A stretch of DNA of 55,877 nucleotides from Actinomycetota bacterium (GCA_030019215.1 JASEEZ010000011.1:1-55877); one strand, 5' to 3'; shown: positions 12,201-31,572, counted from the first letter of the stretch. Numbers and translations: made by a program. The notes: generated from the letters alone by a model not told the origin.

Positions 12201-12400
12201 TTCTTCCCCATTTTTAGTGGACAAACTTTAATCTTGCTTTTTTCTCAAAAGAGTTGGTTATAGAAGGATTCGAGGGTTCAAGGGTTCGAGGATTCGAGTG
12301 TTTTTCACTTGACCACTTGACTCCTGGAATCCTTGAATCCTAAAGTTTTCTCTGCCTTTACCACACCGTAGTAGTTTCTACCCCTTATTTTTGGAGAAGA
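12201..12400 (-). mobile_element. MITE-like element, family 1, copy A (200 bp)
   Basis: The ends TTCTTCCCCATTTTTAGTGG and, inverted, TCTTCTCCAAAAATAAGGGG form terminal inverted repeats. The interior has the family core of GATTCGAG/GGTTCAAG words and CTTGACTCCTGGAATCC. Other copies: 36688-37033, 41206-41424 and a partial one at 55378-55520. No coding capacity. Orientation is opposite to the 36.7 and 55.4 kb copies. Confidence 0.7.
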
Positions 12401-12624
12401 GCATTTTTTTCAAAAAAGAGGAATTTCCGGACATGATGTGGTAATATAGACGCGTCCCGCCAAGACCGGAAATTTGTCCCTGCCCAGACTAAAGCTTTTA
12501 TCGAATTAAGCCGATTTAGTAAGAGAGGAACTTCGGGGGGCATCTGGTCGTGAGAAGAGCTAGCCGACCAAGAGACGGTTGCTCTAAAGCAAAAGCAAAT
12601 GGCATACTTCAGGAGAGGCTGAAA
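12401..12624. other. Intergenic region before the amidase gene
   Basis: Apart from element copy A upstream, this stretch shows no gene. It probably holds the promoter of the wall-protein block; GTAATATAGAC near 12441 is AT-rich, but no clear -35/-10 pair is seen. AGGAGAGG at 12611-12618 is a strong ribosome-binding site for the GTG at 12625. Confidence 0.4.
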
Positions 12625-14469
12625 GTGGCCTTTCGTTTTTTTATGGGAAGGAAAAAGTTTCCAGGCGTGTTTGGGAGGCCGGGATTTCCCACAGCAATTT
12701 CCCTTTTGATTTCACTCCTGCTTTTATGTTCGGTTTTTTTCTCTTTCCCCTGGGAGTGTGCTTTTGCTTATACGCCCGTTGTCTGTCTCGATCCTGGACA
12801 TGGAGGCCGGGACCCAGGGGCTATAAGTTCCTCCGGTTTTCAGGAGAAGGAGGCCAATCTAGACGTTGGACTGAAGGTGAGAGATCAACTGCAGGCGGTC
12901 GGATGCAGGGTCGTCATGACACGGGAGAACGACTCTTACCCCAGTCTTCAGTGCCGATGTGATATAGCCAACAATGCCAATGCCGATATCTTCGTCTCCA
13001 TCCACAGTAATTTTGCGGTTTCAAGCGATGGGTCTCCAAATTCACAGGCTGGTGGCACCGAAACTTATTATTATGCGGGGAGCACCAAAGGTAGTCTCCT
13101 GGCGGCCTGTGTCCAGGAGGAAGTGGTTAAACAGATCGATGGCATCGATCGGGGGACTAAAACGGCCGGCTTTTATGTCCTGGCGGGCACAAGGATGCCA
13201 GCTTGCCTTCTGGAGTGTGTCTTTCTCTCGAACACCGACGAGGAGAGGTTGCTTCAAGATCCGGCTTTCAGGCAGAGGATCGCCAACGGGATCTTCAATG
13301 GAATCGTCAGATATCTGGAGCAGACGACCGGCTTTCAGGTGTTCTATCCCTTGCCTCAATATTTCAGGATCCATGTGCCCAAGGTGACCTCCAATACCCG
13401 GATACAAATCTCCACTTATTTCACCTCGACCAAGTGGGTCTCTCAGCCCATTCTGGCACCGGGCGACTATCTGATACGGATCGACCCGGATGGTTTTGTG
13501 AGGAGCATCGATTCTAAGCTGGCCTTCGCGAAATCGCCCGATGGCACAAGCCCGGCTCTATCCATCTATATCCTCCACCCCGACCAGCGAAACGGCGCCG
13601 ATTTTGCCAGCTATGCCTGGTCGACTACGTATAAACCGCAGGGCGCCATCCGGTGGTCATCGTCGGGCTATCTGAACTTCGATGACGGTTCCATCGTCGA
13701 ATCGAATACCGGTAATACGATCGCCATCACCGGCACGAGGGAGACGATCTACCCCGATAATCTGATGCTCAGGGTACATCTTGAGTCGGTCACACCTCAT
13801 ACCTATCTTGAAATCCCCTTTTATTGGAAGCGGATAGTCTACAGGAGCCAGAAGCCCTTGCCCCCGGGGGACTACTGGATACAGGTCTGTTCGCCTGGCG
13901 GGGGAGGAAATCCCTATCTTTTGAGTCTGGATGGAAGGATATATTTCAGGCAGTTCGCCACGCTTACCAATCCGGATCCGGTTTTTGCTGTCTACATTGC
14001 TTTGCCCAACAGGCCCGAGGTTGGATTTGATGTGGTCGGTTTCGTGCGTGACTTCAAACTGCCCAACACTTACCAGACTATTCTGGGGGCCGAGCCAACC
14101 GGTCCTGATGTCGGTCTGGGCTTTGTCTCCTGCACGGGATTGACCAATCCGGCCAGGGCCAGCACCCGTTATCCCACCATTCCCACTCAAACCTTAACCG
14201 GTGGCAATTACATCATTGTAACCGACGCCGGTTTGATCAGGGGGAAAGTGACCGCGGATTTCATCTCCAATCCATTACCCGGAGCTCGGGTGACCATAAA
14301 TGGATGCAGCATCTTCACCGATGCCAGGGGTGAGTTTGCCTTCACTCACATGGTGCCGGGAGTATATACCCTTGAATATGATGCTCCGGGTTGTAAATCT
14401 CAAACTCAGGTGATTCACGTCGGGGCGGGTAGACCAACCTATCCGCCGACTGTTATCATGTCTCACTGA
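12625..14469 (+). CDS. Secreted N-acetylmuramoyl-L-alanine amidase (Amidase_3) with shared C-terminal surface domains
   Basis: After a signal anchor (LLISLLLLCSVFFSF), residues about 52-231 form a zinc amidase of the AmiC/CwlB type: DPGHGG (His59), EKEANL (Glu74), SIHSN (His127) and the catalytic ECVFLSN (Glu197). It would cut between MurNAc and the stem peptide. The middle (about 245-500) is a beta-rich domain shared with the 20.5-22.1 kb protein (KWVSQPIL, DPDGFVRSIDSKLAF, MLRVHLESVTP). The last 75 residues are one carboxypeptidase-regulatory-like module (GARVTINGC, YDAPGCKSQTQVI). GTG 12625 is preferred over GTG 12550 because of AGGAGAGG 7 bases upstream. First gene of a six-gene exported block. 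Confidence 0.88.
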   Translation: MAFRFFMGRKKFPGVFGRPGFPTAISLLISLLLLCSVFFSFPWECAFAYTPVVCLDPGHGGRDPGAISSSGFQEKEANLDVGLKVRDQLQAVGCRVVMTRENDSYPSLQCRCDIANNANADIFVSIHSNFAVSSDGSPNSQAGGTETYYYAGSTKGSLLAACVQEEVVKQIDGIDRGTKTAGFYVLAGTRMPACLLECVFLSNTDEERLLQDPAFRQRIANGIFNGIVRYLEQTTGFQVFYPLPQYFRIHVPKVTSNTRIQISTYFTSTKWVSQPILAPGDYLIRIDPDGFVRSIDSKLAFAKSPDGTSPALSIYILHPDQRNGADFASYAWSTTYKPQGAIRWSSSGYLNFDDGSIVESNTGNTIAITGTRETIYPDNLMLRVHLESVTPHTYLEIPFYWKRIVYRSQKPLPPGDYWIQVCSPGGGGNPYLLSLDGRIYFRQFATLTNPDPVFAVYIALPNRPEVGFDVVGFVRDFKLPNTYQTILGAEPTGPDVGLGFVSCTGLTNPARASTRYPTIPTQTLTGGNYIIVTDAGLIRGKVTADFISNPLPGARVTINGCSIFTDARGEFAFTHMVPGVYTLEYDAPGCKSQTQVIHVGAGRPTYPPTVIMSH

Positions 14470-14511
14470 TAAAGTGATAGAATGGTTGGAAGATTTGGAG
14501 GAGGGATTGAA

Positions 14512-16155
14512 TTGAGGAAGAAGAAGGTCGCCATCGCACTCTTGCTAACAACACTGGTGCTCATGAGTTTGAAAACGGGCGTCTTTGGTCAGCAGAGTGC
14601 CTCCCACGGGGTTGGCTTGTGCATGGCCGGCGTCAAAGTCATGGCCGAGGGAGGAAGGGACTACCAGAGCATCTTGACCTATTATTATACGGGAACTCAG
14701 ATAACCAGCTGGAATACCAATGTGAATATTCGAGTGGGCGTGCACTCCGATCCCACGGCGATCACGGTCACCGGCACCGCTCCGTTTACCGTCGCGGCGG
14801 ACAACGGCTCTTTGGGTGGCAACGCCAACGATTCGTGCACGGTGAGGTGGACTGGGAGTGGTTATGAGGTTTCTCTGTCCAATGGTTCTATTGGATCATC
14901 CACCAATTCCGTGAGGATCGATCCAGGCTCGGCAACGCTGAAGGTGAATGGCTGGAACAGTTGGGATGGTTCTTCTCGCCAGGTCAGGGGCATAATCGAG
15001 GTGCGTTTCATCACGGATTCCAAGAAGGCGGTGGACAACAATCGCTTGTGGGCGATTAACGAGGTGAATCTGGAGGAATATGTGGCCGGTATTTTGGAGG
15101 AACCGGACACCTGGCCGATGGAAGGCTTGAAGGTCCTCGCGGTGGCCGCCAGAACCTACGCCTTGAATAAGATATCGACCGGGGGAAAGCACAGTCCCTC
15201 CTTCCATCTCTGCGCGACCGGTTGTTGCCAGCAGTACATCGGGGTCTGGAACGGCCCCAATCATAGGATAGCTCAGCAGCAGACGGCTGGGCAGGTCGTT
15301 ACCTACAACGGTTCGCCCATCGTTGCCGCCTACTCCGGGAGCTGTGGTGGAGCGACCAGGACGAATGAAAGCGTTTGGGGGGAAACGCCCCTATCCTACC
15401 TGAGGAGCGTGGTCTGTCCCTGCGGCCAGACTCCTCCAGGGGATATCTATGGTAGAGTGATCAGCAGGATAACTGGAGGGGCCATCCCCGGAACCTGCGT
15501 GCGGGTGGGCGATAAGATTATGCCCACGATACCCAGTGGGGAGTTCAGGTTCACCGGTATCCCCGTGGGCACGCATACCGTCTACTACGACGCCCCCGGC
15601 TATCAGGGCCAGACCCAGGTTATAGAGGTGAAGTCGAGGGCGACGATGAACTGTCCGACCTGCATTCTTTATCCGCCCACCGGCGAGATAAGGGGAAGGG
15701 TGGTAAATCAAGCCTGGCAGACGATACCCGGGACCTGCATCAGGATAAACAGCTCGCTCATGCCCACAAATCCCGGCGGAGAGTTCAGGTTCACCAGGGT
15801 TCACGACGGCATCTACACCGTCTACTACGATGCCCCCGGCTATCAGGGCCAGACCCAGGTGATAGAGGTTAGAAACGGTGCTCCGACACAATGTCCAACC
15901 TGTGTTCTCTCCACCCTGGGCGAGATAAGGGGAAGGGTGGTCAATCAAGCCTGGCAGACGATACCCGGGACCTGCATCAGGATAAACAACTCGCTCATGC
16001 CCACCAATCCCGGCGGAGAGTTCAGGTTCACCAGGGTTCACGACGGCATCTACACCGTCTACTACGATGCCCCCGGCTATCAGGGCCAGACCCAGGTGAT
16101 AGAGGTGAAGGCGGGTTCGGTTACCGTCTGCCCAACGGTGATAATGTCGCCTTAG
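14512..16155 (+). CDS. Secreted SpoIID/LytB-domain protein with three carboxypeptidase-regulatory-like modules
   Basis: A signal peptide (KKKVAIALLLTTLVLMSL) leads into a SpoIID domain, the family of lytic transglycosylases acting on denuded glycan during engulfment. Signature parts are VNLEEYVAGILEEPDTWP, LKVLAVAARTYAL, and the Cys-containing YSGSCGGATRTNESVWG near residue 290. Three modules of about 75 residues follow, each with GTC, a YDAPGYQGQTQVIEV core and usually CPTC. Modules 2 and 3 are nearly identical in DNA (15681-15912 and 15919-16150). TTG 14512 is chosen because GGAGGAGGG is at 14497-14505. It acts naturally after an amidase such as the upstream neighbour. Confidence 0.85.
   Translation: MRKKKVAIALLLTTLVLMSLKTGVFGQQSASHGVGLCMAGVKVMAEGGRDYQSILTYYYTGTQITSWNTNVNIRVGVHSDPTAITVTGTAPFTVAADNGSLGGNANDSCTVRWTGSGYEVSLSNGSIGSSTNSVRIDPGSATLKVNGWNSWDGSSRQVRGIIEVRFITDSKKAVDNNRLWAINEVNLEEYVAGILEEPDTWPMEGLKVLAVAARTYALNKISTGGKHSPSFHLCATGCCQQYIGVWNGPNHRIAQQQTAGQVVTYNGSPIVAAYSGSCGGATRTNESVWGETPLSYLRSVVCPCGQTPPGDIYGRVISRITGGAIPGTCVRVGDKIMPTIPSGEFRFTGIPVGTHTVYYDAPGYQGQTQVIEVKSRATMNCPTCILYPPTGEIRGRVVNQAWQTIPGTCIRINSSLMPTNPGGEFRFTRVHDGIYTVYYDAPGYQGQTQVIEVRNGAPTQCPTCVLSTLGEIRGRVVNQAWQTIPGTCIRINNSLMPTNPGGEFRFTRVHDGIYTVYYDAPGYQGQTQVIEVKAGSVTVCPTVIMSP
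15681..16150 (+). repeat. Two near-identical tandem module repeats in the SpoIID-like gene
   Basis: Two copies of about 235 bases (starting GGCGAGATAAGGGGAAGG at about 15681 and 15919) differ at only a few positions. Each encodes one carboxypeptidase-regulatory-like module. Such identity suggests recent duplication or gene conversion, while the first module in the gene is more diverged. Confidence 0.85.
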
Positions 16156-16173
16156 CGGAAAGGAGTGGGTGAA

Positions 16174-17529
16174 ATGAGGAAGATATTTGCCGTCATAGTC
16201 GTCGGTTTTCTTTTGCTGACTCTCGCTCCCTTGGGTTGCAAGGGAAAGGGTCTCACCGAGAAGCCAGCCGAGGAGAAAGGAGTTGACGTCGATCTGGGTC
16301 CCTACGATGAGGCCTACGGAAAGACCTTTTACGTGACGGTCAATTACGAAACCTGCGGTGATTACGATGTGGATTATAAAGAGCTCATGGAGATAAAGTC
16401 GAGACTGGGGGAGGGCGGCGAGTACACCAAGGTTGGCTTCATGGCCGTCTGCAGGTACATGAACGAGACAAAAGGTGAGAAAGCCGACTTTGTCTTCGAT
16501 CCGAAGAATCTTAGACACATATTTAAATTGTCGGAGGATGCTCAGATTCCGGTGGTGATCTGTCTGAATGGTGGTCCTTGGGGAGGGTTTCTGGCCGAGC
16601 CCAAGACGAGTGCCATCATCCATCTCGAGCAGGATATAAAAAACTGCCAGTGGCGAGATGATGATGTTGTTCCAGGAGACGATGAGGGATGGGTTCACGG
16701 TATCTACCGTATCCTGACCTACAACAACTTGAACAAAGAGGTGAGGTTCTATCAAAAGAGAAACCTCCAGGCGGCGGTGAAAGCGATCACCGCATTTTAC
16801 CATGAGCATCCCGATCTCTTCGTGGCTATAACCGTCGATCCGGAGATCTTCATGAGCCCGTTCTACTACAGCGATTACAATCCTCAGACGATAGAGGAGT
16901 TTCAAGGGTTTGAAAAGGAAAAGTTCAAAGGGGACATCAAGGCCTTCAACAAAGCGATGGGGACGAATTTCTCTGACTGGGAGGACATAGATCCGCCCCG
17001 TCCGTGTATCCCCAAGGATAAGGCCAAGCCCGGGAATAAGTTCTGGGAGGAGTGGACCGATTTTCGAATTCATCTGGTCGATCGATATGTTCAGGACGAG
17101 GTCGATTGGGCCAGGGAAGCTGGATTACCCGCCGAGAGGATCTACACTCACCAGACCGTCCGTTACGACAACCCCGACTGGATGCGCTACATGCTCTGCA
17201 GTCCCTTGAAGACGGCTCAAGTAAAGGGAGGCTCCCTGGGAATAACCACTCTTCAGGATCTCTGTTTTGACGAGAAGCTCTATTCTGAGGCCAGAAAGGC
17301 CAGCTCCAACTGGGGGAATTTTGAGCTCAATCCGGGCTCTCCGGCAAAGCACGATTACAAGACCTTCAAGACGGCTCTGGAGACGATCCGTGAGTACAAT
17401 CCCCATATTCTCTGCCCTTATATGTGGTTAAGTCCGGGCACCGAGCCCTTCTATATGATCAAGGACAGCGAATTCGAGAGGGCCATCAGGGATTTTGTGA
17501 AGGAGATAGGCGACGAACCAAGAGGGTAG
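16174..17529 (+). CDS. Lipoprotein with a GH42-like TIM-barrel domain
   Basis: A lipoprotein signal peptide ends at Cys22 (TLAPLGC). The rest resembles a TIM-barrel glycoside hydrolase of the beta-galactosidase-like (GH42-like) type: a segment of form NPQTIEEFQGFEKEKFKG, then FNKAMGT, DIDPPRP and EEWTDFR has the layout of GH42 proteins. Candidate acids are Glu in TVDPEIFMSP and Glu in NFELNPGS, but the usual Asn-Glu acid/base pair is not present, so activity is unproven. A paralogue follows directly (17557). ATG 16174 is chosen for AAAGGAG upstream. Substrate unknown; context suggests wall glycan or surface polysaccharide. Confidence 0.65.
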   Translation: MRKIFAVIVVGFLLLTLAPLGCKGKGLTEKPAEEKGVDVDLGPYDEAYGKTFYVTVNYETCGDYDVDYKELMEIKSRLGEGGEYTKVGFMAVCRYMNETKGEKADFVFDPKNLRHIFKLSEDAQIPVVICLNGGPWGGFLAEPKTSAIIHLEQDIKNCQWRDDDVVPGDDEGWVHGIYRILTYNNLNKEVRFYQKRNLQAAVKAITAFYHEHPDLFVAITVDPEIFMSPFYYSDYNPQTIEEFQGFEKEKFKGDIKAFNKAMGTNFSDWEDIDPPRPCIPKDKAKPGNKFWEEWTDFRIHLVDRYVQDEVDWAREAGLPAERIYTHQTVRYDNPDWMRYMLCSPLKTAQVKGGSLGITTLQDLCFDEKLYSEARKASSNWGNFELNPGSPAKHDYKTFKTALETIREYNPHILCPYMWLSPGTEPFYMIKDSEFERAIRDFVKEIGDEPRG

Positions 17530-17556
17530 GCAAATGATTATAGGGAGATAGCAAAT

Positions 17557-19398
17557 ATGGCAAAAAAAGTCTTGGTGATGTTGATCTTGTGTTTCTTGAT
17601 ATTCGCTGGTGTTCCCTCTTTTTCTTGGGCGGCCAGCTATGAGAAGACATTTTACGTCACGCCGGGGGTGGAGATATCCCGCGGCAGCTATGCCGGCGAC
17701 CTCTCGAACCTTCAGGATATGAAGGCCAGGTTGGGAACGGGGGGTGAATATACCAAGCTTGGTTTCATGGCCTGTTCAAGATATATGAATGAGACTCATG
17801 GACGGGCAAACGATTTTACATTCGATCCCACTCTCTTGAAGAACATACTCCGTCTGTCCATAGAGATGAATCTGCCGGTGGTTATAACCTTAAGCGGGGG
17901 GCCCTGGGGGGATGTGGGTGTTCCGGAAAATCCGGAAGTGAATCTGATAGACCATCTCGAGCAGGATATAAACAACTGCCAGTGGCGAGACGACAACGCC
18001 GTTCCCTCCGATTCCGACTATCCCACGAAGGGGCTTGGGAGGCTCCTCACGTTGAACAACTATAATTCGGTGGTCAAGGCCTATCGGAAGCGGAATTTTC
18101 AGGCGGCCGTCCGGGAGATATACAACTTTTCACTGGAGCATCCGGATCTTTTTCTGGGCATCACCACCGATCCCGAGGTGTTCATGAGCCCATTTTACTT
18201 CAGCGACTACAATCCCCAGACGATACAGGAGTTCCGGGATTATGAGCGCAGAAAGTACGGTGGAAGCATCTCTGCCTTCAACAGAGCTATGGGTACCTCC
18301 CTTCGCAGTTTTGACGAGCTCGATCCCCCTCGACCGTGTTTCGGACAGGCGATGGGGGGCAATCCTCTGGGTGAGGAGTGGACGAATTTCCGGACATTTC
18401 TGGTCGACCACGACGTTCAATCGCAGGTGAATTGGGCTCGCGAGGTGGGAATCCCGGCATACAAAATTTATACTCATCAAACCGTCAGACGGGACAACCC
18501 AACCTGGTGCCGCTATCTTCTCTGCAGTCCACTTTATACGGCACATGTAGAAGGTGGTTCCATTGGCATCACCACCCTCCAGGATCTCTGCTTCAACAGC
18601 GAACTTTTCGCCGATGCCCTGCGTCTCAGTCCAAATTGGGGCATATTCGAGTACAACCCGTCCAAGCCGGAGGGAACCAGCTATGAAACCTACACGAGGG
18701 CATTACAGCTGGCCTACGACCATCGGGCTCACATCATCTGCCCTTATTTGTGGAATCACGAGAGCAACGAGCCCTACTACAACATCCAGGGCACGCCATT
18801 CGAGAGGGCGATTAGGGATTTCATCTCCCAGAAATCAAACAACCCCTTCAGCGTTACGATCAGTGGCTCTTCCACTCCATCCGGTGCATCCATTTCCAAC
18901 GGCGAGATCTACGGGCGGTTGATCAGTCAAACCACGGGACGGATGATCGCCGGAACCTGTATAAGGATAAACAACTCCATCATGCCCACAAACCCCAACG
19001 GAAACTTCAGGTTCACCCTGGTTCACCCGGGAACTTACACCGTTTACTACGATGCTCCCGGTCATCAGGGCCAGACCCAGGTGATAGAGGTGAGAGCCGG
19101 GGCCACCACAACCTGCCCCACCTGCATACTTTCCCCGGGTTCGGGGACATCCACCACCGGAGAAATCTACGGGCGGTTGATCAGTCAAACCACGGGGCGA
19201 ATGATCGCCGGAACCTGTATAAGGATAAACAACTCCATCATGCCCACCAACCCCAACGGAAACTTCAGGTTCACCCTGGTTCACCCGGGAACTTATACCA
19301 TCTACTATGATGCCCCCGGTCATCAGGGCCAGACCCAGGTGATAGAGGTGAGAGCCGGGGCCACCACAACCTGCCCCACCTGTATACTTTCGCCCTAA
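17557..19398 (+). CDS. Secreted GH42-like TIM-barrel protein with two C-terminal carboxypeptidase-regulatory-like modules
   Basis: Paralogue of the preceding lipoprotein over its whole barrel (CQWRDDN, TTDPEVFMSPFYFSDYNPQ, AFNRAMGTS, ELDPPRPC, GEEWTNFR, IYTHQTVRRDNP), but with an ordinary signal peptide (LVMLILCFLIFAGVPSFSWA) instead of a lipobox. After about residue 445 it carries two modules with GTCIRINNSIMPTNPNGNF and CPTC, almost identical to each other in DNA (18898-19139 and 19159-19398). The pair of candidate acids (TDPE, FEYNPS) is kept in both paralogues. The substrate is unknown. The stop lies 12 bases before the TTG of the L,D-transpeptidase gene, so the two are surely cotranscribed. 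Confidence 0.65.
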   Translation: MAKKVLVMLILCFLIFAGVPSFSWAASYEKTFYVTPGVEISRGSYAGDLSNLQDMKARLGTGGEYTKLGFMACSRYMNETHGRANDFTFDPTLLKNILRLSIEMNLPVVITLSGGPWGDVGVPENPEVNLIDHLEQDINNCQWRDDNAVPSDSDYPTKGLGRLLTLNNYNSVVKAYRKRNFQAAVREIYNFSLEHPDLFLGITTDPEVFMSPFYFSDYNPQTIQEFRDYERRKYGGSISAFNRAMGTSLRSFDELDPPRPCFGQAMGGNPLGEEWTNFRTFLVDHDVQSQVNWAREVGIPAYKIYTHQTVRRDNPTWCRYLLCSPLYTAHVEGGSIGITTLQDLCFNSELFADALRLSPNWGIFEYNPSKPEGTSYETYTRALQLAYDHRAHIICPYLWNHESNEPYYNIQGTPFERAIRDFISQKSNNPFSVTISGSSTPSGASISNGEIYGRLISQTTGRMIAGTCIRINNSIMPTNPNGNFRFTLVHPGTYTVYYDAPGHQGQTQVIEVRAGATTTCPTCILSPGSGTSTTGEIYGRLISQTTGRMIAGTCIRINNSIMPTNPNGNFRFTLVHPGTYTIYYDAPGHQGQTQVIEVRAGATTTCPTCILSP

Positions 19399-19680
19399 AG
19401 GAGGTTGGTCTTGCGAGGGAGAGTTTTCCTTTTCATCGGATTTGTTTCCCTCTTTGCCCTGCTCTTTATCACCCCTGCTTTGGGTGAGTCACCCACCGGC
19501 GTTTTAACCGGCCGGGTGCTGAGCAGCGCAGATAACTCACCCATCGCCGGAACCTGTATAAGGATAAACAACTCCATCATGCCCACCAACCCCAACGGAA
19601 ACTTCAGGTTCACCCTGGTTCACCCGGGAACTTATACCATCTACTATGACGCCCCCGGTCACGAATCCCAGATGCAGGAA
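18898..19680 (+). repeat. Near-identical module repeats spanning two genes
   Basis: Three copies of a block beginning ATCGCCGGAACCTGTATAAG occur at about 18947, 19205 and 19544. The first two are in the GH42-like gene, the third in the downstream L,D-transpeptidase gene. Over about 130 bases the copies are nearly identical, although the host genes are unrelated outside the module. This fits module spread by recombination. Confidence 0.85.
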
Positions 19681-20376
19681 GGCATCTTAGTCGGTGTGGG
19701 ACAAACCGTTGTTCTTCCGACAGTCGTCCTTGGGACCGATACGGGGATCATCAAGGGGAAGGTGATCAGCTCCGCTACGAATCTACCCATCGCCGGTACC
19801 GCGGTGAGGATAAACAACATCGTCATTCCCAGCGACGCCGACGGAAACTTCAGATTCACCCTGGTGTATCCGGGAATGCATACCATCCACTACGATGCCC
19901 CCGGACATCTTTCGCAGACCCAAGAGCTCATTCGGGTTGAGAAGGGGAAATGTGTTGTGCCTCCCATGGTGGTCATGTCCGCCGATGGTCCACCCCGCAT
20001 ACTTCTAAAGGTTTCTGAAAATAGGCTCTATCTTTTTTACGGCAGTTATCTCGTCAAGAGTTATCCGGTGGCCACGGGAATGCGGGGCTGGCCCACGCCC
20101 AGGGGGACCTTCACAATAATCAGGAAGGATGTTAACCCAACCTGGTATCCTCCCAGCTGGGCCGATGTTGAGAAGCCTGTCCCCCCCGGCCCCAGCAATC
20201 CGCTGGGGACGAGGCGCTTGCTCCTGAGTGACCCGAGCTACGGGATTCACGGGACGAATAAGATATCATCCATCGGAAGATATATAACTCACGGTTGTAT
20301 TAGACTTTACCCCTGGGATATCGTGGACTTGTTTGACAGGGTGACGGTGGGAACCATCGTCGATATCGTCACCTGA
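19411..20376 (+). CDS. L,D-transpeptidase (YkuD) with two N-terminal carboxypeptidase-regulatory-like modules
   Basis: Signal peptide (VFLFIGFVSLFALLF), two modules (residues about 30-110 and 112-190, each with RINN, FRFTLVYPG/HPG and YDAPGH), then a YkuD domain. The catalytic motif is visible as YGIHGTNKIS followed by ITHGCIRLYPWD, with the nucleophilic Cys. YkuD enzymes make 3-3 cross-links or attach proteins to peptidoglycan. The N-terminal position of the modules, opposite to that in its neighbours, suggests mobile domain shuffling. TTG 19411 fits AAAGGAGG at 19397-19404. Tightly linked to the gene upstream. Confidence 0.88.
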   Translation: MRGRVFLFIGFVSLFALLFITPALGESPTGVLTGRVLSSADNSPIAGTCIRINNSIMPTNPNGNFRFTLVHPGTYTIYYDAPGHESQMQEGILVGVGQTVVLPTVVLGTDTGIIKGKVISSATNLPIAGTAVRINNIVIPSDADGNFRFTLVYPGMHTIHYDAPGHLSQTQELIRVEKGKCVVPPMVVMSADGPPRILLKVSENRLYLFYGSYLVKSYPVATGMRGWPTPRGTFTIIRKDVNPTWYPPSWADVEKPVPPGPSNPLGTRRLLLSDPSYGIHGTNKISSIGRYITHGCIRLYPWDIVDLFDRVTVGTIVDIVT

Positions 20377-20458
20377 GCGATTTGGAAGCAAGGTTCTAAA
20401 GTTCCCCCTCCGCTTTACCGATAATAGGATTGGGAAATCAAAGTAGGGGGGAAACTTT

Positions 20459-22102
20459 ATGTCGTCGCTCAAATTCAGGGCGTTGAGCACCGCTTGTGTC
20501 TTGTTCCTTTTGGTGGGTTTGTTCTCGCCGTTTATGGGAGGCGTAGCTTTTGCCTCCAACATCCTGCCGATCGAGGTAACCATAACCGTCAATTCGGCGA
20601 CCATTCCCAAGACCCAGATCCAGGTGGCCACGGGTTGGGCGGGGCTATCGTGGATGAGCCAGCAGGGGATAGGAAGAAGTATCTATCGGATTGGGGTTTA
20701 TCCCGATGGCACGGCGATAAGTCTCGATGGCCAACTCGACTTGACTCCCTGGCCTGATGTGAACGATCAGGCCCTCAGGGTTTATATCAGGTATCCCGAT
20801 GCCCAGCACAGCAATGGCGCGGACGCCTTGCTGTACACGAAGGGCGGCAACGTAATCCACTACGGCAATCAAGGCTATGTCGACTTTGGTGGAGCATTTT
20901 ATCCGGGCTCCCTCACCGCCGGCAACTCTATCTCTTTCACCAACTCGAGCGGGGCCTGGCAAAGATGGACCCCTCTTCCTCAGTATTTCCTGATTCACAC
21001 CCCCTCCATCACGCCCGGTACCAGGATTCAGGTGTCCAACTACTACGCCGGCGTGAAGTGGGTATCTCAACCCATCCTGGCCAGGGGGGATTTCATCATC
21101 AGGGTGGATCCCGATGGTTTTGTGAGATCGATAGATTCGAAGTTGGCCTTCACCAAGTCGGCGGAAGCCAGGGGATCCGCTTTGGCCATCTATATTTTAA
21201 AACCGGATAACAACAACTCCGCCGATTACTATCGTTATACCTGGAGTAACTCCTCGACTCCATCTGGGGCGATAGCTTTTGAATCTTCGGGCTACGTTGA
21301 TTTCAACACCGGGGCAGTGGGACCGTCTTCGACGGGAAACACGGTCAATCTGACCACCAATCAAGAGGTCATCTATCCTGAAAGCTTCATGCTCCGCGTT
21401 CACCTGGAGTCGGTTACCCCCTGGACCTTCCTTCACATGCCCTTCTACTGGAAGCACGTGATCTACAGGAGTCAGATACCCCTAGGACCGGGCGACTACT
21501 GGATTCAGGTGATGCCTGATCCGAATCCGGCTGATCCAGCCTCCGCGCCCTATCTTCTGAGTCTTGACAATAGGATTCGCTTCAACAGGATCTACTGCCC
21601 CGAGGCACCAGATCCTGTCTTTGGGGTGTTTATCGCCTGCCCAAACAGGCCCGAACAGGGTTTCGATACGGTTGGTTTCGTCCACAACTTCAGGCGCCCG
21701 AATACCTACCAGACCATGTTGGGCGAGAATAAGATTGGCCCTGACTTAGGGCTTGGCTTCGTCTTCTGTGATGTGAGAAATCCGAGGGACGCGATCACCA
21801 ATCACCCGACCGCTCCAACGGAGACTTTAACTGGCGGAAACTACGTGGTGGTGACGGATGCCGGGATACTCATCGGAAGAGTCGTCAACGAGGGTGGCGC
21901 TCCCATAGCCGGGGCGAGGGTGAGCATCAATGGGTGTGTGCAAATAACCGATGTCAACGGCGAGTTCCGGTTCACCCACATGGTCCACGATAATTATGTG
22001 TTGCACTACAGTGCCCCTGGATATCGCTCCCAGGATCAGGTGGTGAAGGTGGCCGAGGGTGCTCCCACCTACCTACCGCAGACGGTTCTTTCGCGTCTCT
22101 GA
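20459..22102 (+). CDS. Secreted protein of unknown function sharing beta-rich domains with the amidase
   Basis: The signal peptide ends near VAFA (residue 30). Two stretches are related to each other: residues about 30-155 and 165-290 both have a pattern ending in a DG...SIDSKLAF/SLDGQLDL strand and a YI-KPD segment. From about 165 to the C-terminus it aligns with the amidase tail (HTPSITPGTRIQVSNYY, DPDGFVRSIDSKLAF, MLRVHLESVTPWTF, GDYWIQV, PNTYQTMLGE), ending in one carboxypeptidase-regulatory-like module with NGC and YSAPGYRSQDQVV. No catalytic motif is seen. It may bind wall or a partner. ATG start behind GGGGGG. A strong terminator follows, marking the end of the block. Confidence 0.7.
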   Translation: MSSLKFRALSTACVLFLLVGLFSPFMGGVAFASNILPIEVTITVNSATIPKTQIQVATGWAGLSWMSQQGIGRSIYRIGVYPDGTAISLDGQLDLTPWPDVNDQALRVYIRYPDAQHSNGADALLYTKGGNVIHYGNQGYVDFGGAFYPGSLTAGNSISFTNSSGAWQRWTPLPQYFLIHTPSITPGTRIQVSNYYAGVKWVSQPILARGDFIIRVDPDGFVRSIDSKLAFTKSAEARGSALAIYILKPDNNNSADYYRYTWSNSSTPSGAIAFESSGYVDFNTGAVGPSSTGNTVNLTTNQEVIYPESFMLRVHLESVTPWTFLHMPFYWKHVIYRSQIPLGPGDYWIQVMPDPNPADPASAPYLLSLDNRIRFNRIYCPEAPDPVFGVFIACPNRPEQGFDTVGFVHNFRRPNTYQTMLGENKIGPDLGLGFVFCDVRNPRDAITNHPTAPTETLTGGNYVVVTDAGILIGRVVNEGGAPIAGARVSINGCVQITDVNGEFRFTHMVHDNYVLHYSAPGYRSQDQVVKVAEGAPTYLPQTVLSRL

Positions 22103-22131
22103 TGGTGGTTTTCTTTGACTATCTTCTTTGG

Positions 22132-22164
22132 AAAAAGCCCCCGATGTACATCGGGGGCTTTTTC
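22132..22164 (+). terminator. Rho-independent terminator after the exported-protein block
   Basis: AAAAAGCCCCCGATG-TA-CATCGGGGGCTTTTTC forms a perfect GC-rich stem with a short loop and a T run. It lies 30 bases after the stop of the 20.5-22.1 kb gene and before the LCP gene, so it separates two transcription units. The same CCCCGAT/ATCGGGG stem is used in the ATP operon repeat copy 2. Confidence 0.9.
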
Positions 22165-22251
22165 TCTTCACAGCCTCACTTTGATGTTCCCTTTTCAGGG
22201 AAGATGTGCTAATCTCAGAGAAAACTTCTTTCGACTCTCCTCGAGGTTTAC

Positions 22252-23508
22252 ATGGGAAAACATGTCATGGTCAGGCCCTATAGAAAGCGGAGATCTCCCT
22301 TGAAAGGGTGTCTCGTTGCCCTCCTTATCTTTTTCATTTTGAGTGGGGTAGCAGCCTTTGCCTATGTAAAGGTGATCGAGAGGCGGTTGCGAAAGAACGG
22401 GCATGAGTTTAGGGAGGCTCAGGAGACTATCTCCAATCCCATCGCCGGCAAGCCGGTGAACTTTCTCTTACTGGGCATCGATGCGAGGGGGAAGAAGAGA
22501 GCTCGTTCCGATACTATCATGCTTTTGCACCTCGATGAGGCGAAGAGGAGGGCCACTTTAATCTCAATACCGCGGGACATGCGGGTGAAAATACCTGGCA
22601 AGGGTTACGATAAGATAAATGCGGCTACTGCTCTGGGGGGTCCGGCTTTGATGATCAGGACGGTCGAGGATTTCACCGGTTTCTCCATACACCACTATGT
22701 TCTGGTGGATTTCGAAGGGTTTGAAAAGATGGTGGATGCCCTGGGAGGGATTGAGATATATCTGGAGAAACCCCTGGTGGACGAGGCCACCAAGTTTGGA
22801 ATCCCCGCGGGCAGGCAGATTTTCGATGGGGAGACGGCTCTAAACTACGTCCGTTTTCGCCGAGATCCCAAGGGAGATTTTGGGCGAATAGAACGCCAGC
22901 AGAAATTCTTGGGCGCTCTCATGGATAAGCTTTTGCGCTTGAGGATGGTATTGAAATTTCCCAAGCTTGCCAATATAGTCGCCGACAATACCCAAACTGA
23001 CCTCACCATCTCCGAAATGCTCAAATTTGGCACCCTCTTCAATTCCATGGGGAAGGATGATGTGGAGATGACTGTCCTTCCCGGTAAGCCCAAGACGATA
23101 GGCAAGATAAGTTATGTTATTCCCGATGAGGAGAATATCCAGAAGATACTCACCTGCGTGAAAGAGGGCCGATCTCTCGACGACCTTAAGGAGCAAGAGA
23201 CAAGGGAGGTATCGAAGAAGGACATTCACATCCAGGTCCTAAACGGTTGTGGGATGGCTGGTCTGGCTGAAAGGGCCAAAAACGATCTTCTTTCCAAGGG
23301 CTTCACGGTCGTTGGCACGGGGAATGCCGACAGTTTCAATTATGCCTCTACTGTGGTATCTTATCGCAGGGGTGAGCGCGAGAAGGCTGAGGTCGTTGGG
23401 CCTCTGTTCAAGGGAGCCACAATCAAGCTCTGGACGAAAGATCTTGAGCCCTCCGTGGATGTGGTGGTCATTCTAGGCAAGGATTACCCTTCGATGAACT
23501 CAAGGTAA
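22252..23508 (+). CDS. LytR-CpsA-Psr (LCP) family protein with LytR_C domain
   Basis: Wall-polymer ligase family: LCP enzymes move lipid-linked polymers (teichoic acid, arabinogalactan or capsule) to peptidoglycan. One N-terminal membrane helix (LVALLIFFILSGVAAFAYV) is followed by the LCP domain: LLLGIDARGKKRARSDTIMLL, ISIPRDMRVKIPG, DKINAATALGG, and an RFRRDPKGDFGRIERQQ arginine-rich motif near residue 200. The C-terminal 110 residues fit LytR_C (IHIQVLNGCGMAGLAERAKNDL). The last codons (YPSMNSR) are inside a CCCTTCGATGAACTCAAGG repeat. ATG 22252 has only a weak GAGG upstream. It precedes the rhamnose genes, consistent with attaching a rhamnose-containing polymer. Confidence 0.92.
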   Translation: MGKHVMVRPYRKRRSPLKGCLVALLIFFILSGVAAFAYVKVIERRLRKNGHEFREAQETISNPIAGKPVNFLLLGIDARGKKRARSDTIMLLHLDEAKRRATLISIPRDMRVKIPGKGYDKINAATALGGPALMIRTVEDFTGFSIHHYVLVDFEGFEKMVDALGGIEIYLEKPLVDEATKFGIPAGRQIFDGETALNYVRFRRDPKGDFGRIERQQKFLGALMDKLLRLRMVLKFPKLANIVADNTQTDLTISEMLKFGTLFNSMGKDDVEMTVLPGKPKTIGKISYVIPDEENIQKILTCVKEGRSLDDLKEQETREVSKKDIHIQVLNGCGMAGLAERAKNDLLSKGFTVVGTGNADSFNYASTVVSYRRGEREKAEVVGPLFKGATIKLWTKDLEPSVDVVVILGKDYPSMNSR

Positions 23509-25384: not shown

Positions 25385-25438
25385 GGGCGGGATCTGCAAC
25401 AGTCTGTCTTCTCACTGCTGTTTTTAACGGGGTTGAAT

Positions 25439-27514
25439 ATGAAAAAGATATTGGTGACCGGGGGAGCCGGTTTCATAGGCAGCAACTTCGTTCGATATAT
25501 GCTCGAGCAACATCCGGATTACAGAATCATCAATCTGGATAAACTGACTTATGCCGGCAATCCGGACAATTTGAGGGATATCGGGGGCAATCCCCGCTAC
25601 GAGTTCATAAAAGGGGACATATGCGATGGGACCCTCGTGGGGAAGGTGATGAAGGGCGTTGATGCGGTGCTGAACTTCGCCGCCGAAAGTCACGTCGATC
25701 GCTCAATTCTCAATGCTTCTGAGTTTATTCAAACTAATGTTTACGGAACCTATGTTTTATTAGAGGCAGCAAAGAAATATAGCCTTGATAGATTTATTCA
25801 GATTAGTTGTTATGATGAGAAAACAAGAGCATTAACAACAGAGGGACTGAAGACATATAAAGAATTGAAGGAAGGAGATTTTGTTTTTTCATTAAATCCT
25901 ATAACACAAGAAATAGAAATTAAGCCTATTGAAAAAATTATAGTTCAGCCCCATAAGGGGGATATGATCCATTTTAATAATAAGCGAATTGATTTACTTG
26001 TGACTCCAAATCATAATATGTTTATTCTCAGTACAAATAAAAAGAAATTGCTCGTTGAAACAGCTGAAAAAGTTTCAAAAAGAAGTATTTTTTATATGCC
26101 AGATGGCTATTGGAAAGGTAAAAAAGAAGAATATATCGATGTAAAAGGTTATGGGAAAGTTAAAACAACAGATTTAATGTATATTTTAGGTATTTTCATC
26201 GGCGATGGATTTATAGATTATCAAGAAAAAACAGTTGAGACAAAAACAGGTTTAGCAAGAGAGGAATATTTAAAGAAGTCAAGAGATATTGCCAGCGGTA
26301 GATTTAAGAGAATAGAGAAGCAAGGTAACCATAAGTCTGTATGTCGTAGCTATAGAGTATTTTTGGATATTCCAGAAAATGATAAATGTCGCAAAAAAGT
26401 AGAAAAAACTTTACATAATTTAGGCATAAAATACCATTTCCATGAAGGAAAAGCAGGCACGCATTTGTATTTTACTTCGAAGGCATTTATGGAATTATTC
26501 GCTCAATGCGGCCAAGGGGCATATAATAAGCGAATTCCGCGATGGGCATTAGATTATTCTCCAGAGTATCTAAGCTATTTATTGGAAGGATTAATGGACT
26601 CAGATGGCCATAATGGCAAAATATATCATACCGTTTCAAAAAGATTACTCTCGGATATTTGTGAACTTTGTATAAAATTAAATCTTAAACCGAGCATACA
26701 CAAAAGACATACTATATCTTTTATGAATGGCAGAAAGATAGAAGGAAAAGGATGGTATGTTTTTGTTGCTAATACTACCAAATCAATTAGCCGCCACAGA
26801 AATAAAATAATTAATTATGATGGCGATATTTGGTGTTTGAAAATCAAAGATAATAAAAATTTTTTAGTTGAGAGAAATGGTAAATTCGATTTTTGTGGAA
26901 ATACTGATGAAGTATATGGGAGTATAGAAAATGGTTCATTCACCGAAGAGTCACCTTTGCGCCCTAATAGTCCTTACGCTGCCAGTAAAGCCGCAGCCGA
27001 CCACTTAGTTCGCTCATATTTCGTAACTTATAAATTACCAGTATTAATTACTCGCAGTAGCAACAATTTCGGTCCCTATCAATATCCTGAGAAGTTGATT
27101 CCTCTCTTTGTCACGAACGCTCTCGAGGGCAAATCCCTTCCCCTGTATGGAGATGGAATGAACGTTCGCGATTGGTTGTATGTTTTGGACAACTGTGAGG
27201 CCATCGATTTTGTTTTACATAAGGGGAAGGAAGGAGAAATATATAATATCGGGGGCGACAATGAGTTGCCCAATATCGAGATCACTAGGGAAATTCTTAG
27301 GATTTTGGGCAAGCCCAGCAGTTTAATTCAGTTTGTCCAGGACAGACCAGGTCACGATTGGAGGTACTCCATTAACTCTGATAAAATAAAAAAGTTAGGC
27401 TGGAGACCACGCCACGCTTTCAAGGAGGCTCTCGAGCAGACCATCAGGTGGTATCAAGGGAACGAGTGGTGGTGGCGAAAGCTGACCCTTCGACTACGCT
27501 CAGGGTCACCTTGA
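25439..27514 (+). CDS. rmlB: dTDP-glucose 4,6-dehydratase interrupted by an in-frame intein
   Basis: Short-chain dehydrogenase fold enzyme converting dTDP-glucose to dTDP-4-keto-6-deoxyglucose. The N-extein has the NAD motif ILVTGGAGFIGSNFV and FAAESHVDRSI; the C-extein begins with the catalytic TDEVYGS and has YAASKAAADH. Between Ser and Thr of IQIS/TDEVYG lies a 365-residue intein (25808-26902). Splicing would give about 326 residues, the usual length. ATG 25439 is used; the in-frame TTG at 25433 is unlikely. The last residues (LRLRSGSP) come from a CCCTTCGAC-type repeat. AT-rich codons extend from the intein into both exteins. Confidence 0.95.
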   Translation: MKKILVTGGAGFIGSNFVRYMLEQHPDYRIINLDKLTYAGNPDNLRDIGGNPRYEFIKGDICDGTLVGKVMKGVDAVLNFAAESHVDRSILNASEFIQTNVYGTYVLLEAAKKYSLDRFIQISCYDEKTRALTTEGLKTYKELKEGDFVFSLNPITQEIEIKPIEKIIVQPHKGDMIHFNNKRIDLLVTPNHNMFILSTNKKKLLVETAEKVSKRSIFYMPDGYWKGKKEEYIDVKGYGKVKTTDLMYILGIFIGDGFIDYQEKTVETKTGLAREEYLKKSRDIASGRFKRIEKQGNHKSVCRSYRVFLDIPENDKCRKKVEKTLHNLGIKYHFHEGKAGTHLYFTSKAFMELFAQCGQGAYNKRIPRWALDYSPEYLSYLLEGLMDSDGHNGKIYHTVSKRLLSDICELCIKLNLKPSIHKRHTISFMNGRKIEGKGWYVFVANTTKSISRHRNKIINYDGDIWCLKIKDNKNFLVERNGKFDFCGNTDEVYGSIENGSFTEESPLRPNSPYAASKAAADHLVRSYFVTYKLPVLITRSSNNFGPYQYPEKLIPLFVTNALEGKSLPLYGDGMNVRDWLYVLDNCEAIDFVLHKGKEGEIYNIGGDNELPNIEITREILRILGKPSSLIQFVQDRPGHDWRYSINSDKIKKLGWRPRHAFKEALEQTIRWYQGNEWWWRKLTLRLRSGSP
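25808..26902 (+). mobile_element. Intein with LAGLIDADG homing endonuclease inside RmlB
   Basis: In-frame insert of 365 residues starting at Cys1 (block A: CYDEKTRALTTEGLKTYKEL) and ending FCGN before Thr+1. Block B is DLLVTPNHNMFI, with the TxxH motif at residues 66-69. Two dodecapeptide motifs, LGIFIGDGF (127-135) and LLEGLMDSDG (258-267), mark a LAGLIDADG endonuclease. Block F is DIWCLKIKDNKNFLV. The penultimate residue is Gly, not the usual His. Base composition is much more AT-rich than the host genes, a sign of lateral arrival. Class 1 (Cys1) splicing with a Thr acceptor is inferred. Confidence 0.93.
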
Positions 27515-28606: not shown

Positions 28607-28622
28607 GTTGGGGAGCACATCG

Positions 28623-29453
28623 GTGAAGATTTTGATAACGGGGAGCGAGGGACAGCTTGGCAGGGACCTGGTTCGGGTGCTTTCCGATGAGCATGAACTC
28701 TTTCCCTTTGACTTGGACATGGACGTGACCGTTCTCGATGGGACGATGAAGACCGTGACTACCATCTCGCCGGATGTGGTCATTCACGCCGCTGCCTATA
28801 CCGATGTGGATGGTTGTGAACTCAACCCTGATTTGGCCTACAAGGTCAATGCCCTCGGTACGCAGAACGTCGCGCTGACCTGTCAGAGGTGTGGGGCCGC
28901 CATGCTCTATGTGAGCACGGATTTCGTCTTTGATGGCAAGAAGGGAGAACCCTACCTGGAGTTCGATGAACCGAATCCCATCAGCGTCTACGGGCGGTCC
29001 AAGCTCGCCGGTGAGAGGTACGTTACATCTCTTTTGGACAGGTACTACATTACCCGAACAGCCTGGCTTTTTGGAAAGCATGGCAGGAATTTTGTCAAAA
29101 CCATTCTCAAGCTGGCAGAGGAGAGAGAGGAGTTGACCGTCGTTGATGATCAGATGGGTTCGCCCACCTACAGCCTGGATTTGGCAAAAACCATCGCCGA
29201 GCTCGTAAAAACCGGCTGGTATGGTCTCTACCACACCACCAACAGCGGAAGTTGTTCCTGGTTTGAGTTTGCCAAGAAAATACTGGAGTGCGCCGGCAAG
29301 AGGGGGGTTAAGGTGTCCCCGATAACCTCTGAGGAGTTGAACCGACCTGCTCCCCGACCCACCTATTCAGTTTTGAAGAATTACTGCCTGGAGCTTCGAG
29401 GCATTCAACCCCTACGCCATTATGAAGAGGCCTTGAGGGACTATTTCTCCTAA
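28623..29453 (+). CDS. rmlD: dTDP-4-dehydrorhamnose reductase
   Basis: NADPH-dependent short-chain reductase for the last step to dTDP-L-rhamnose. It has the N-terminal ILITGSEGQLGRDLV, the VIHAAAYTDVDGCE segment with the downstream YVSTDFVFDGKKGEPY strand, and the catalytic YGRSKLAGE (Tyr, Lys). 276 residues from GTG 28623 is normal; GGGGAG 8 bases upstream decides this start over the upstream in-frame TTG 28608. It completes the rml pathway. A CCCCGCCATCGGCGGG palindrome follows the stop. Confidence 0.93.
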   Translation: MKILITGSEGQLGRDLVRVLSDEHELFPFDLDMDVTVLDGTMKTVTTISPDVVIHAAAYTDVDGCELNPDLAYKVNALGTQNVALTCQRCGAAMLYVSTDFVFDGKKGEPYLEFDEPNPISVYGRSKLAGERYVTSLLDRYYITRTAWLFGKHGRNFVKTILKLAEEREELTVVDDQMGSPTYSLDLAKTIAELVKTGWYGLYHTTNSGSCSWFEFAKKILECAGKRGVKVSPITSEELNRPAPRPTYSVLKNYCLELRGIQPLRHYEEALRDYFS

Positions 29454-29471
29454 CCCCGCCATCGGCGGGCC
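29454..29471. repeat. CCCCGCCATCGGCGGG palindrome
   Basis: Short perfect GC palindrome directly after the rmlD stop, identical in core to the hairpin in the ATP operon repeat copy 1. There is no T run, so it is not a standard terminator. Confidence 0.55.
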
Positions 29472-29501
29472 AGGGCTGAATCCGGCGAAAGAGGCTTATA
29501 T

Positions 29502-30314
29502 ATGCTTGAGAAGGTAAGGGAACTTTACAAATACCGTGAGCTATTAGCGAATCTGGTCAAAAGGGAACTCAAAGTCAAGTACAAGCGCTCCGTTCTGGGC
29601 TTTTTTTGGTCGCTGCTCAATCCGCTTTTCACCATGCTCGTCTTCACCTTCGTTTTTGCCTTCGTCCTGCGCATTCCTCCCCCAGAGAACGCCTGGGGGC
29701 TGTCGAGTTTCCCGATGTTCTTACTGTGCGCCCTTCTACCCTGGAATTTTTTCAGTCTCTCCCTGGGTTCTTCGGTTGGCTCCATCGTTGGAAATAGCAA
29801 TCTCATCCGAAAGATTTATTTCCCGCGAGAGATCTTACCCACCTCCTTAACCCTGGCAAATTTGATCAATTTTTTTCTGGAGTGTCTCGTGCTTTTCCTC
29901 TTTTTGGCTATTCTCGGTTACCCCTTTTACCTCTATTTGCCTTTTCTATTGCCCATACTCTTCATCGAACTTCTCTTCGTGATCGGGATGGCTCTCATCT
30001 TTTCTTTCTTGAATGTCTACTTCCGGGACGTGGAACATTTCGTGGGCATAATACTGATGATCTGGTTTTACGCCACTCCGGTGATTTATCCCTTCAGTAT
30101 GATTCCCGTAGAATGGCGTGGTCTGCCCATTCAGTCCATCCTCAAGCTGAATCCAATGACCGCTCTGGCTCTCTGTTATCGAGACGTCCTTTATTTTTGT
30201 CGGATGCCAGATCTGAGTTTGCTTCTCTATACCGGCTTATTGTCTCTCGTGGTGTTGATCGTGGCCTACCTTCTTTTTAAGCGATATGAGCCTTTCTTTG
30301 CCGAAGAGGTGTAA
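29502..30314 (+). CDS. wzm: Polysaccharide ABC transporter permease (Wzm/TagG-like)
   Basis: ABC-2 type membrane subunit of 270 residues with six predicted helices. The amphipathic N-terminus (REL-KYRELLANLVKRELKVKYKRS) followed by LGFFWSLLNPLFTMLVF and the FRDVEHFVGIILMIWFYATPVIYP segment is typical for polysaccharide exporters. It would export undecaprenyl-linked glycans together with the ATPase downstream. ATG start behind GAAAGAGG. Its stop is 1 base before the wzt start, implying translational coupling. Confidence 0.93.
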   Translation: MLEKVRELYKYRELLANLVKRELKVKYKRSVLGFFWSLLNPLFTMLVFTFVFAFVLRIPPPENAWGLSSFPMFLLCALLPWNFFSLSLGSSVGSIVGNSNLIRKIYFPREILPTSLTLANLINFFLECLVLFLFLAILGYPFYLYLPFLLPILFIELLFVIGMALIFSFLNVYFRDVEHFVGIILMIWFYATPVIYPFSMIPVEWRGLPIQSILKLNPMTALALCYRDVLYFCRMPDLSLLLYTGLLSLVVLIVAYLLFKRYEPFFAEEV

Positions 30315-30315
30315 A

Positions 30316-31572
30316 ATGAAAGTCCTGGACTCCCTTGCGACATCGAAGAAAACCAGTAGTGTTATTGATGTGCAGGGCGTGTGGAAAAAATTTCGCATCT
30401 ATCATGAGAGGAACCAGAGCCTGAAGGAGATAATCCTTCGCGGAAAAAGGGCGGATTACGAGGAACTTTGGGCATTGAAGGATGTTTCCTTCTCTATCCC
30501 CCAGGGGATGACCTTAGGGATCGTTGGAGAGAATGGTTCCGGGAAAAGCACTCTACTTAAAATTTTGGCGAGAATTCTAAAGCCCAACAAGGGCAGTTTT
30601 GTGGTGAACGGGAAGGTATCGGCCCTTCTTGAGCTGGGGGCGGGCTTTCATCCTGAACTGACGGGACGGGAAAACATCTATTTGAACGGTTCCATTCTGG
30701 GGCTCAGCCAGCGAGAGATAAGAGACAGGTTCGATGAGATCGTTGAGTTTTCTGAGCTGGAGAGATTCATCGATACACCCGTTAAGAGCTATTCCTCTGG
30801 AATGTATCTCCGGTTGGGTTTTGCCGTGGCCGTCAGCGTCGATCCCGATGTTTTGTTGATAGATGAGATATTGGCGGTGGGGGACGAAGCTTTCCAGCGG
30901 AAATGTTCGGATAAGATATTCGATTTTAAAAATAGAGGGAAAACCATCGTTTTGGTCTCTCACGGCTTGGAAGCGGTGAGAAGCATTTGTGATGAGGCAA
31001 TCTGGTTGCACGAGGGGGAGATTCAGGCGAGGGATGAAGCCAGGAAAGTGGTCGATCTCTATCTAAACAAGGTAAACGAGGAGGAACAACAGCGAGCCGG
31101 CCGGGGAGGAGAGGAACAGCATCTCGGTACCAGGGTGGGTTCACGAGAGGTGGAGATAACCAAAGTGGCTTTCTGTGATTTGGATGGCAAGGAGAGGGAT
31201 TGTTTTCAGACCGGTCAGGGTTTTGTAGTTAGGATATATTATCGAGCTCACCAGAGTATCGACAAACCGGTTTTTGGGGTAGCCATTTATAGAAGCGATG
31301 GGACCCACGTCACAGGACCCAATACCAGGCTTCACCGACTGGAGATAGAAACAGTAAGCGGGGAAGGGTGTGTGGAATATGTCGTCGATTCCTTACCCTT
31401 GCTGCCGGGAACTTATCTCTTTTCAGCGGCTATCTATGACTATGCCTGCCTTCACCCCTACGATCATCACGAAAAAATGTACACATTCAGGATTCTCCCT
31501 TCCGGCGAGGAGGAGTTTTACGGAGTTGTTCAGATTCCTTGCGCTTGGAGGCATGTAAAAGAGAAACCTTAA
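30316..31572 (+). CDS. wzt: Polysaccharide ABC transporter ATP-binding protein with Wzt C-terminal domain
   Basis: Energy-coupling subunit for the Wzm-type permease. Walker A is GENGSGKST near residue 75, the signature is YSSGMYLRLGF, Walker B is VLLIDEILAVGDEAF and the switch His is in LVSHGLEAV. The C-terminal 150 residues (from VEITKVAFCDLDG) form a beta-sandwich as in Wzt_C, which in O-antigen systems recognises the end of the glycan. ATG 30316 is chosen over the upstream overlapping ATG at 30286 because GAAGAGG is placed correctly. Confidence 0.93.
   Translation: MKVLDSLATSKKTSSVIDVQGVWKKFRIYHERNQSLKEIILRGKRADYEELWALKDVSFSIPQGMTLGIVGENGSGKSTLLKILARILKPNKGSFVVNGKVSALLELGAGFHPELTGRENIYLNGSILGLSQREIRDRFDEIVEFSELERFIDTPVKSYSSGMYLRLGFAVAVSVDPDVLLIDEILAVGDEAFQRKCSDKIFDFKNRGKTIVLVSHGLEAVRSICDEAIWLHEGEIQARDEARKVVDLYLNKVNEEEQQRAGRGGEEQHLGTRVGSREVEITKVAFCDLDGKERDCFQTGQGFVVRIYYRAHQSIDKPVFGVAIYRSDGTHVTGPNTRLHRLEIETVSGEGCVEYVVDSLPLLPGTYLFSAAIYDYACLHPYDHHEKMYTFRILPSGEEEFYGVVQIPCAWRHVKEKP

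Follow-up and report, generated by a model that had tools for sequence, protein, structure and literature searches.

A transthyretin-like module on exported wall enzymes of Ca. Aquicultoria: a candidate cell-surface anchor, putatively changed together with the sugar polymer that it may hold

Introduction

What is the role of a small domain that recurs on five of six neighboring exported proteins, at the C-terminus of four of them and at the N-terminus of the fifth? This question is raised by a gene run in the window, i.e., the whole 55,877-nucleotide stretch of DNA analyzed here (GCA_030019215.1 JASEEZ010000011.1:1-55877). The window comes from an uncultured Actinomycetota bacterium of the class Ca. 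Aquicultoria, whose genome (G000) spans 1.63 Mb and is 94% complete. The initial annotation proposed that the module directs the enzymes of the run to one place or partner, forming an exported multi-enzyme wall machine. To our knowledge, few non-covalent wall-anchoring domains are known. The data described below suggest that the module is a new kind of cell-surface anchor, which was changed together with the sugar polymer that it putatively holds.

Gene content of the run

Six open reading frames for exported proteins lie head to tail on the + strand (12550-22102), with gaps of 12, 9, 27, 6, and 82 bases between them. The run is closed by a strong intrinsic terminator on the same strand (22130-22165), which has a 16-bp stem; a pattern scanner missed it, and it was scored against shuffles (z = -5.7). 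The single run and the strong terminator described in the initial annotation are thereby confirmed.

The first gene (12550-14469) encodes an exported N-acetylmuramoyl-L-alanine amidase (Amidase_3, PF01520, E 4.7e-52). Its start could be GTG 12550, GTG 12625, or ATG 12643, the last being more likely. The second (14482-16155) encodes an exported SpoIID/LytB-domain protein (PF08486, E 2e-17; TIGR02669 above cut-off) that ends in three modules. Two homologous GH42-like barrel genes follow: GH42a (16165-17529), which has no module and carries the sequence LAPLGC in its signal region, and GH42b (17557-19398), which has two C-terminal modules. The first barrel matches Glyco_hydro_42 (PF02449, E 2.7e-8), while the second falls below the Pfam cut-off. 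In the structural model, GH42b is a (beta/alpha)8 barrel matched to GH42/GH35 and beta-amylase, and the predicted fold of both barrels is that of GH42, GH35, and beta-amylase enzymes. The fifth gene (19405-20376) encodes an L,D-transpeptidase (YkuD, PF03734, E 1.2e-25) with two modules, each matching PF13620, at its N-terminus. The last encodes P6 (20459-22102), an exported protein without a named family, which has no Pfam or NCBIfam match outside its module. P6 appears to consist of about three all-beta repeats of ~130 residues, as judged from internal sequence repeats and a low-confidence model, followed by one module.

P6 (20459-22102) and the amidase (13321-14220) share an unnamed all-beta domain, present as ~130-residue repeats, which is 58% identical between the two and belongs to no Pfam family. 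The similarity spans 13312-14463 of the amidase gene, which thus carries two P6-type repeats and then one module. Upstream, short repeated and inverted words lie between the fabZ and amidase genes at 12262-12345 (ggttcaagggttcgaggattcgag ... gaatccttgaatcc).

The run recalls the engulfment pair of SpoIID and amidase (DMP complex), in that a SpoIID domain is present and an amidase is encoded together with it. However, the amidase of the window belongs to Amidase_3, and its best match, CwlD, is below the cut-off for that family. Judging by the domain assignments, it is plausible that the run encodes a set for local peptidoglycan trimming and cross-linking without sporulation.

Sequence and fold of the module

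Both Pfam and a profile search find exactly nine copies of the module, close to the initial estimate of about nine on five proteins and, as proposed there, at either end of them. All are on the + strand and were located with the A1 profile: one at the C-terminus of the amidase (14227-14463, E 3e-37), three in SpoIID (15439-15672, 15679-15912, and 15919-16149, the last C-terminal), two in GH42b (18898-19134 and 19156-19392, the latter C-terminal), two at the N-terminus of the L,D-transpeptidase (19495-19731 and 19741-19980), and one at the C-terminus of P6 (21860-22093). The module measures ~78-80 residues rather than the ~70-75 first given. A chance resemblance is excluded, as all nine copies exceed the Pfam cut-off for CarboxypepD_reg (PF13620) and the two GH42b copies share 95% DNA identity. 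Over 134 nt, the first copy in the transpeptidase shares 94% with one of these, and this near-identity indicates that the copies have spread or been homogenized recently. Because the module copies form a poorly resolved tree, we make no claim of copy-by-copy orthology between genomes.

Two motifs, YYDAPG..QTQ and MPTN..GEFRFT, are highly conserved over unrelated carriers from two taxonomic families. The CPTC motif that the initial annotation included in the module is complete in four of the nine window copies, but it is not conserved: cysteine is absent from all 19 copies in the second genome that carries the module (G010, see below). A disulfide-based module as a general feature is hence ruled out.

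The fold is taken from the model of P6, in which the module is a transthyretin-like domain; the GH42b model is too weak in its module part for the packing of the two copies to be read. The confident part of the P6 model is a transthyretin-like beta-sandwich, whose best matches are domains of carboxypeptidases D and N with a TM of about 0.7-0.8 (single-domain targets). The module thus resembles the CarboxypepD_reg/transthyretin-like domain of these carboxypeptidases in both profile and fold, and differs in forming a tight subfamily that recurs on many exported enzymes. CarboxypepD_reg does not appear in the table of wall-attachment domains in a review of the subject (PMC5817068), and no wall anchor of the CarboxypepD_reg type emerged from literature searches.

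In four window proteins, as well as in two module-bearing CAP-domain proteins encoded elsewhere in G000, the last copy stops 1-3 residues before the C-terminus; in the L,D-transpeptidase the copies are N-terminal. A C-terminal secretion signal was rejected, as the module is N-terminal in the L,D-transpeptidases of both the window and G010. Covalent LPXTG anchoring was rejected as well: no such signal follows the module, the C-terminal copies in G000 end the protein outright, and the combination of a C-terminal LPXTG, a hydrophobic helix, and a basic tail is lacking in the module proteins of this genome. A gene for a class E-like sortase (L054, 3969-4661 on contig C52 of G000) lies directly downstream of a module-bearing CAP protein.

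Distribution of the module

There are 12 PF13620 matches in G000, namely the nine in the run, two of the same module on the CAP-domain exported proteins (contig C52), and one that is unrelated. With three matches in the genome outside the run, a common domain scattered over unrelated exported proteins, the initial annotation's own alternative, is ruled out. Mobile or viral origin was also rejected, there being no relatives in IMG/VR or among plasmids. The module search suggested in the initial annotation, run with a profile of the nine copies, gave strong matches in one genome other than G000, both within the 36-genome class and among 397 Actinomycetota genomes. This genome is G010 (Actinomycetota bacterium NC_groundwater_1528), which has 19 copies on 11 proteins of different kinds, near the C-terminus in eight of the 11. 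Several of these proteins (L047, L048, L049, and L050) have a Lys/Arg-rich tail of ~19-37 residues after the last module, a feature not seen in G000.

The module-bearing set recurs in G010, which is the kind of co-occurrence for which the initial annotation suggested a neighbor survey. There, SpoIID has three modules, GH42a is split by a contig end, GH42b has one module, and the transpeptidase has two at its N-terminus; P6, whose orthologue lacks the module, comes next, followed by LCP, rmlA, rmlC, and rmlB. The order SpoIID - GH42a - GH42b - LDT - P6 - LCP - RmlA is thus kept, across one contig break.

Such conservation, together with the close packing of six genes of which five bear the module, could mean that the module mediates protein-protein docking and brings the six enzymes together in an exported wall-remodeling complex. 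We regard this as improbable. No scaffold or partner was found, and the module also occurs on the CAP proteins of G000 and on protease and beta-propeller proteins of G010; furthermore, versions of the same enzymes with SLH or CWB2, which are known polymer-binding domains, cluster in the same way. The carriers in G010 (an S8 protease, beta-propeller proteins, and PKD proteins among others) do not belong to one pathway, as would be expected if the module anchors proteins in general instead of docking them to a specific partner; the proposed multi-enzyme wall machine is left without support.

On contig C52, near the CAP proteins, a signal peptidase gene lies beside one for a TasA/camelysin-like protein (L053; by eye), suggesting a SipW/TasA-type fiber locus. 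Many secreted proteins have CarboxypepD_reg domains, and this, along with the proximity of the TasA/SipW-like pair to one C52 module copy, could be taken to mean that the module binds external material, such as a plant or mineral surface or a biofilm matrix, instead of the cell's own wall. The core carriers, though, are peptidoglycan enzymes (amidase, SpoIID, and L,D-transpeptidase) whose substrate is that wall, and we consider external binding very improbable.

Anchoring domains in relatives

The locus common to relatives reads murA - fabZ - [enzymes] - LCP - rmlA - rmlC - rmlB - DUF3048 - rmlD - ABC - wzt. In the same-genus genome G001, the contig breaks off within fabZ, just short of the expected start of the cluster, so that this genome is uninformative. 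G004 (Ca. Subteraquimicrobium carltonvillense) belongs to the same order as G000 and to a different family. Just upstream of LCP, G003 and G004 encode a GH42-like barrel with three SLH domains. SpoIID and the amidase each have three SLH domains in G004, while in G002 the GH42-like barrel and SpoIID each have three CWB2 domains and the amidase has three SLH. Likewise, an S8 subtilase that bears two modules in G010 bears three SLH domains in G002-G004. Hence, no fewer than three of the window's enzyme families, and one further family, bear a known anchor domain in some relatives and the module in others. The presence of these anchoring domains on the orthologues lends indirect support to the idea that the module sends the enzymes to one place.

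In several respects the module resembles the SLH/CsaB system (PF00395, PF04230). Both involve a terminal domain, repeated on many exported enzymes, whose genes adjoin a wall-polysaccharide cluster, and the orthologues with SLH include GH42-like, SpoIID, amidase, and S8 proteins. Unlike that system, G000 has neither SLH nor pyruvyl transferase, and the module occurs in 1-3 copies and not as a fixed triplet. On the amidase, moreover, SLH is N-terminal in relatives, whereas the module is C-terminal in the window. The likeness to CWB2 (PF04122), which binds the anionic polymer PSII in Clostridioides difficile, lies in a putatively non-covalent domain beside likely polymer genes and in the use of either protein end, since CWB2 triplets too may sit at either end (PMC4973711); in addition, the SpoIID and GH42-like orthologues of G002 carry CWB2. 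The sequences are unrelated, however, and CWB2 is absent from G000.

Neither SLH, CWB2 (CW_binding_2 profile), nor the pyruvyl transferase PF04230 has a match in G000 or G010. Half of the class lacks both SLH and CWB2, and the chance of both being absent in G000 and G010 is ~0.27, so that the shared lack of SLH, CWB2, and csaB in G000 and G010 is weak evidence when taken alone.

The module-free proteins also have a bearing on anchoring. GH42a has a lipobox-like sequence, LAPLGC in the window and a better MAIGC in G010, and is therefore probably a lipid-anchored lipoprotein. By eye, the C-terminus of a module-free CAP paralogue shows a hydrophobic segment together with basic residues. These two sequence features are in line with one anchor per surface enzyme; the P6 orthologue of G010, which has neither the module nor such another anchor, is a counter-example.

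The main rival reading is that the module serves merely as a structural stalk or stability domain, an Ig/transthyretin-like spacer without specific binding that keeps the catalytic domains away from the membrane or wall. The fold is of the generic CarboxypepD_reg/transthyretin-like kind and can serve as a plain stalk, given that generic PF13620 domains adjoin SLH in one G004 protein. LdtMt2-type transpeptidases, for their part, have N-terminal Ig-like domains. Yet a stalk would leave unexplained why SLH and CWB2 are missing from exactly the module-bearing proteins, why the csaB site has changed (see below), and why the module is so highly conserved over unrelated carriers in two families. We therefore judge it rather unlikely.

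Sequence identities differ between the cluster and its flank. In the flank, the window is closer to its order-mates than to G010 for LCP (56-61% vs. 49%) and RmlA (80% vs. 76%), and its MurA is 70% identical to that of G003. In the cluster, it is closer to G010 than to the order-mates for SpoIID (53% vs. 32-37%), GH42b (64% vs. 51-56%), and RmlC (68% vs. 46-51%); P6 and the catalytic part of LDT are 73 and 70% identical to those of G010. These values fit either a transfer of the module cluster between lineages or loss and replacement in the SLH family.

Polysaccharide locus and the csaB site

Downstream of the run lies the syntenic flank, beginning with an enzyme of the LytR-CpsA-Psr (LCP) family (22252-23508, + strand; PF03816, E 8e-50), which attaches polymers to the wall. 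RmlB (dTDP-glucose dehydratase, 25433-27514) contains an apparent intein: an Intein_splicing match at residues 134-479, below cut-off, splits the epimerase match. The orthologue in G002 is also over-long (845 aa). Farther downstream, genes for RmlD, an ABC permease, and Wzt with Wzt_C (28608-31572, + strand) point to export of a rhamnose-type polysaccharide.

Across the 36 genomes of the class, PF04230 is found in 12 of 12 genomes with SLH versus 2 of 24 others (Fisher p 7e-8). Stronger evidence than the joint absence comes from the locus itself. In G002 and G003, wzt is separated from a GT2/GT1 fusion gene by csaB and a glycosyltransferase gene; the best NCBIfam match of this csaB is S_layer_CsaB, below its cut-off. 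The same neighbors, about 62% identical, flank two methyltransferases in the window (31574-33690, + strand), which have helical-looking tails and stand in place of csaB and the glycosyltransferase. The same two methyltransferases, 57 and 62% identical to those of the window, occupy the same place in G010. There is no trace of csaB in the window or the G010 stretch, and none of the methyltransferases in the examined loci of G002-G004.

According to a review (PMC5817068), SLH binding requires pyruvylation by CsaB, and the pyruvate is located on the distal polymer end. Some O-antigens exported by ABC transporters are terminated by a methyl or methylphosphate cap, and this termination signals export (PMC5529442). 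From these facts, we infer that methyl may have taken the place of pyruvate at the polymer end and that the module may read the new end. The locus is comparable to those of WbdD-type terminator methyltransferases (Klebsiella O3/O5 and E. coli O8/O9), in which a methyltransferase also directly follows wzt in an ABC-exported polysaccharide locus. The likeness is one of gene position; in contrast to WbdD, the window enzymes have no Pfam kinase domain match and belong to an actinobacterial wall locus.

Proposed mechanism and implications

The explanation that we favor, with somewhat better than even confidence, is that the module anchors proteins non-covalently to the cell surface, standing in for SLH or CWB2 triplets, and most likely reads the neighboring rhamnose-type polysaccharide. 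Each enzyme would be exported by its own signal peptide and held on the cell surface by the module, whose position at one end or the other would keep the catalytic domain free. The adjoining rmlABCD, ABC permease, and Wzt would make and export the putative ligand, which the LCP enzyme presumably attaches to the wall. In SLH relatives, this polymer would bear CsaB-made pyruvate, read by SLH; in G000 and G010, where two methyltransferases take the place of csaB, the module may read a methylated polymer. Once anchored, the amidase would strip stem peptides, SpoIID would cut glycans, and the L,D-transpeptidase would cross-link, so that peptidoglycan work is done locally.

Several findings count against such an anchor. 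The module is found in two genomes only, and the P6 orthologue of G010 is free of it. The copy number of 1-3 differs from the SLH/CWB2 triplet, and the module is at the opposite end of the amidase. Finally, the Lys/Arg-rich tails of several G010 carriers could be the real anchor there.

A more far-reaching version, which we advance tentatively and hold to be possible rather than probable, is a lock-and-key exchange in one locus. CsaB pyruvate and SLH would have given way to methylation by two methyltransferases and a transthyretin-like reader, in several enzyme families at once, making up a previously unknown polysaccharide-specific anchoring system.

The locus offers a natural experiment, in which orthologous enzymes bear SLH, CWB2, or the module, with a matching change in the polymer genes; from it come a candidate for a new anchor and a ligand prediction that can be tested directly. 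The same comparison points to a strategy of general use for finding new anchors, which is to look for whatever replaces SLH on orthologues.
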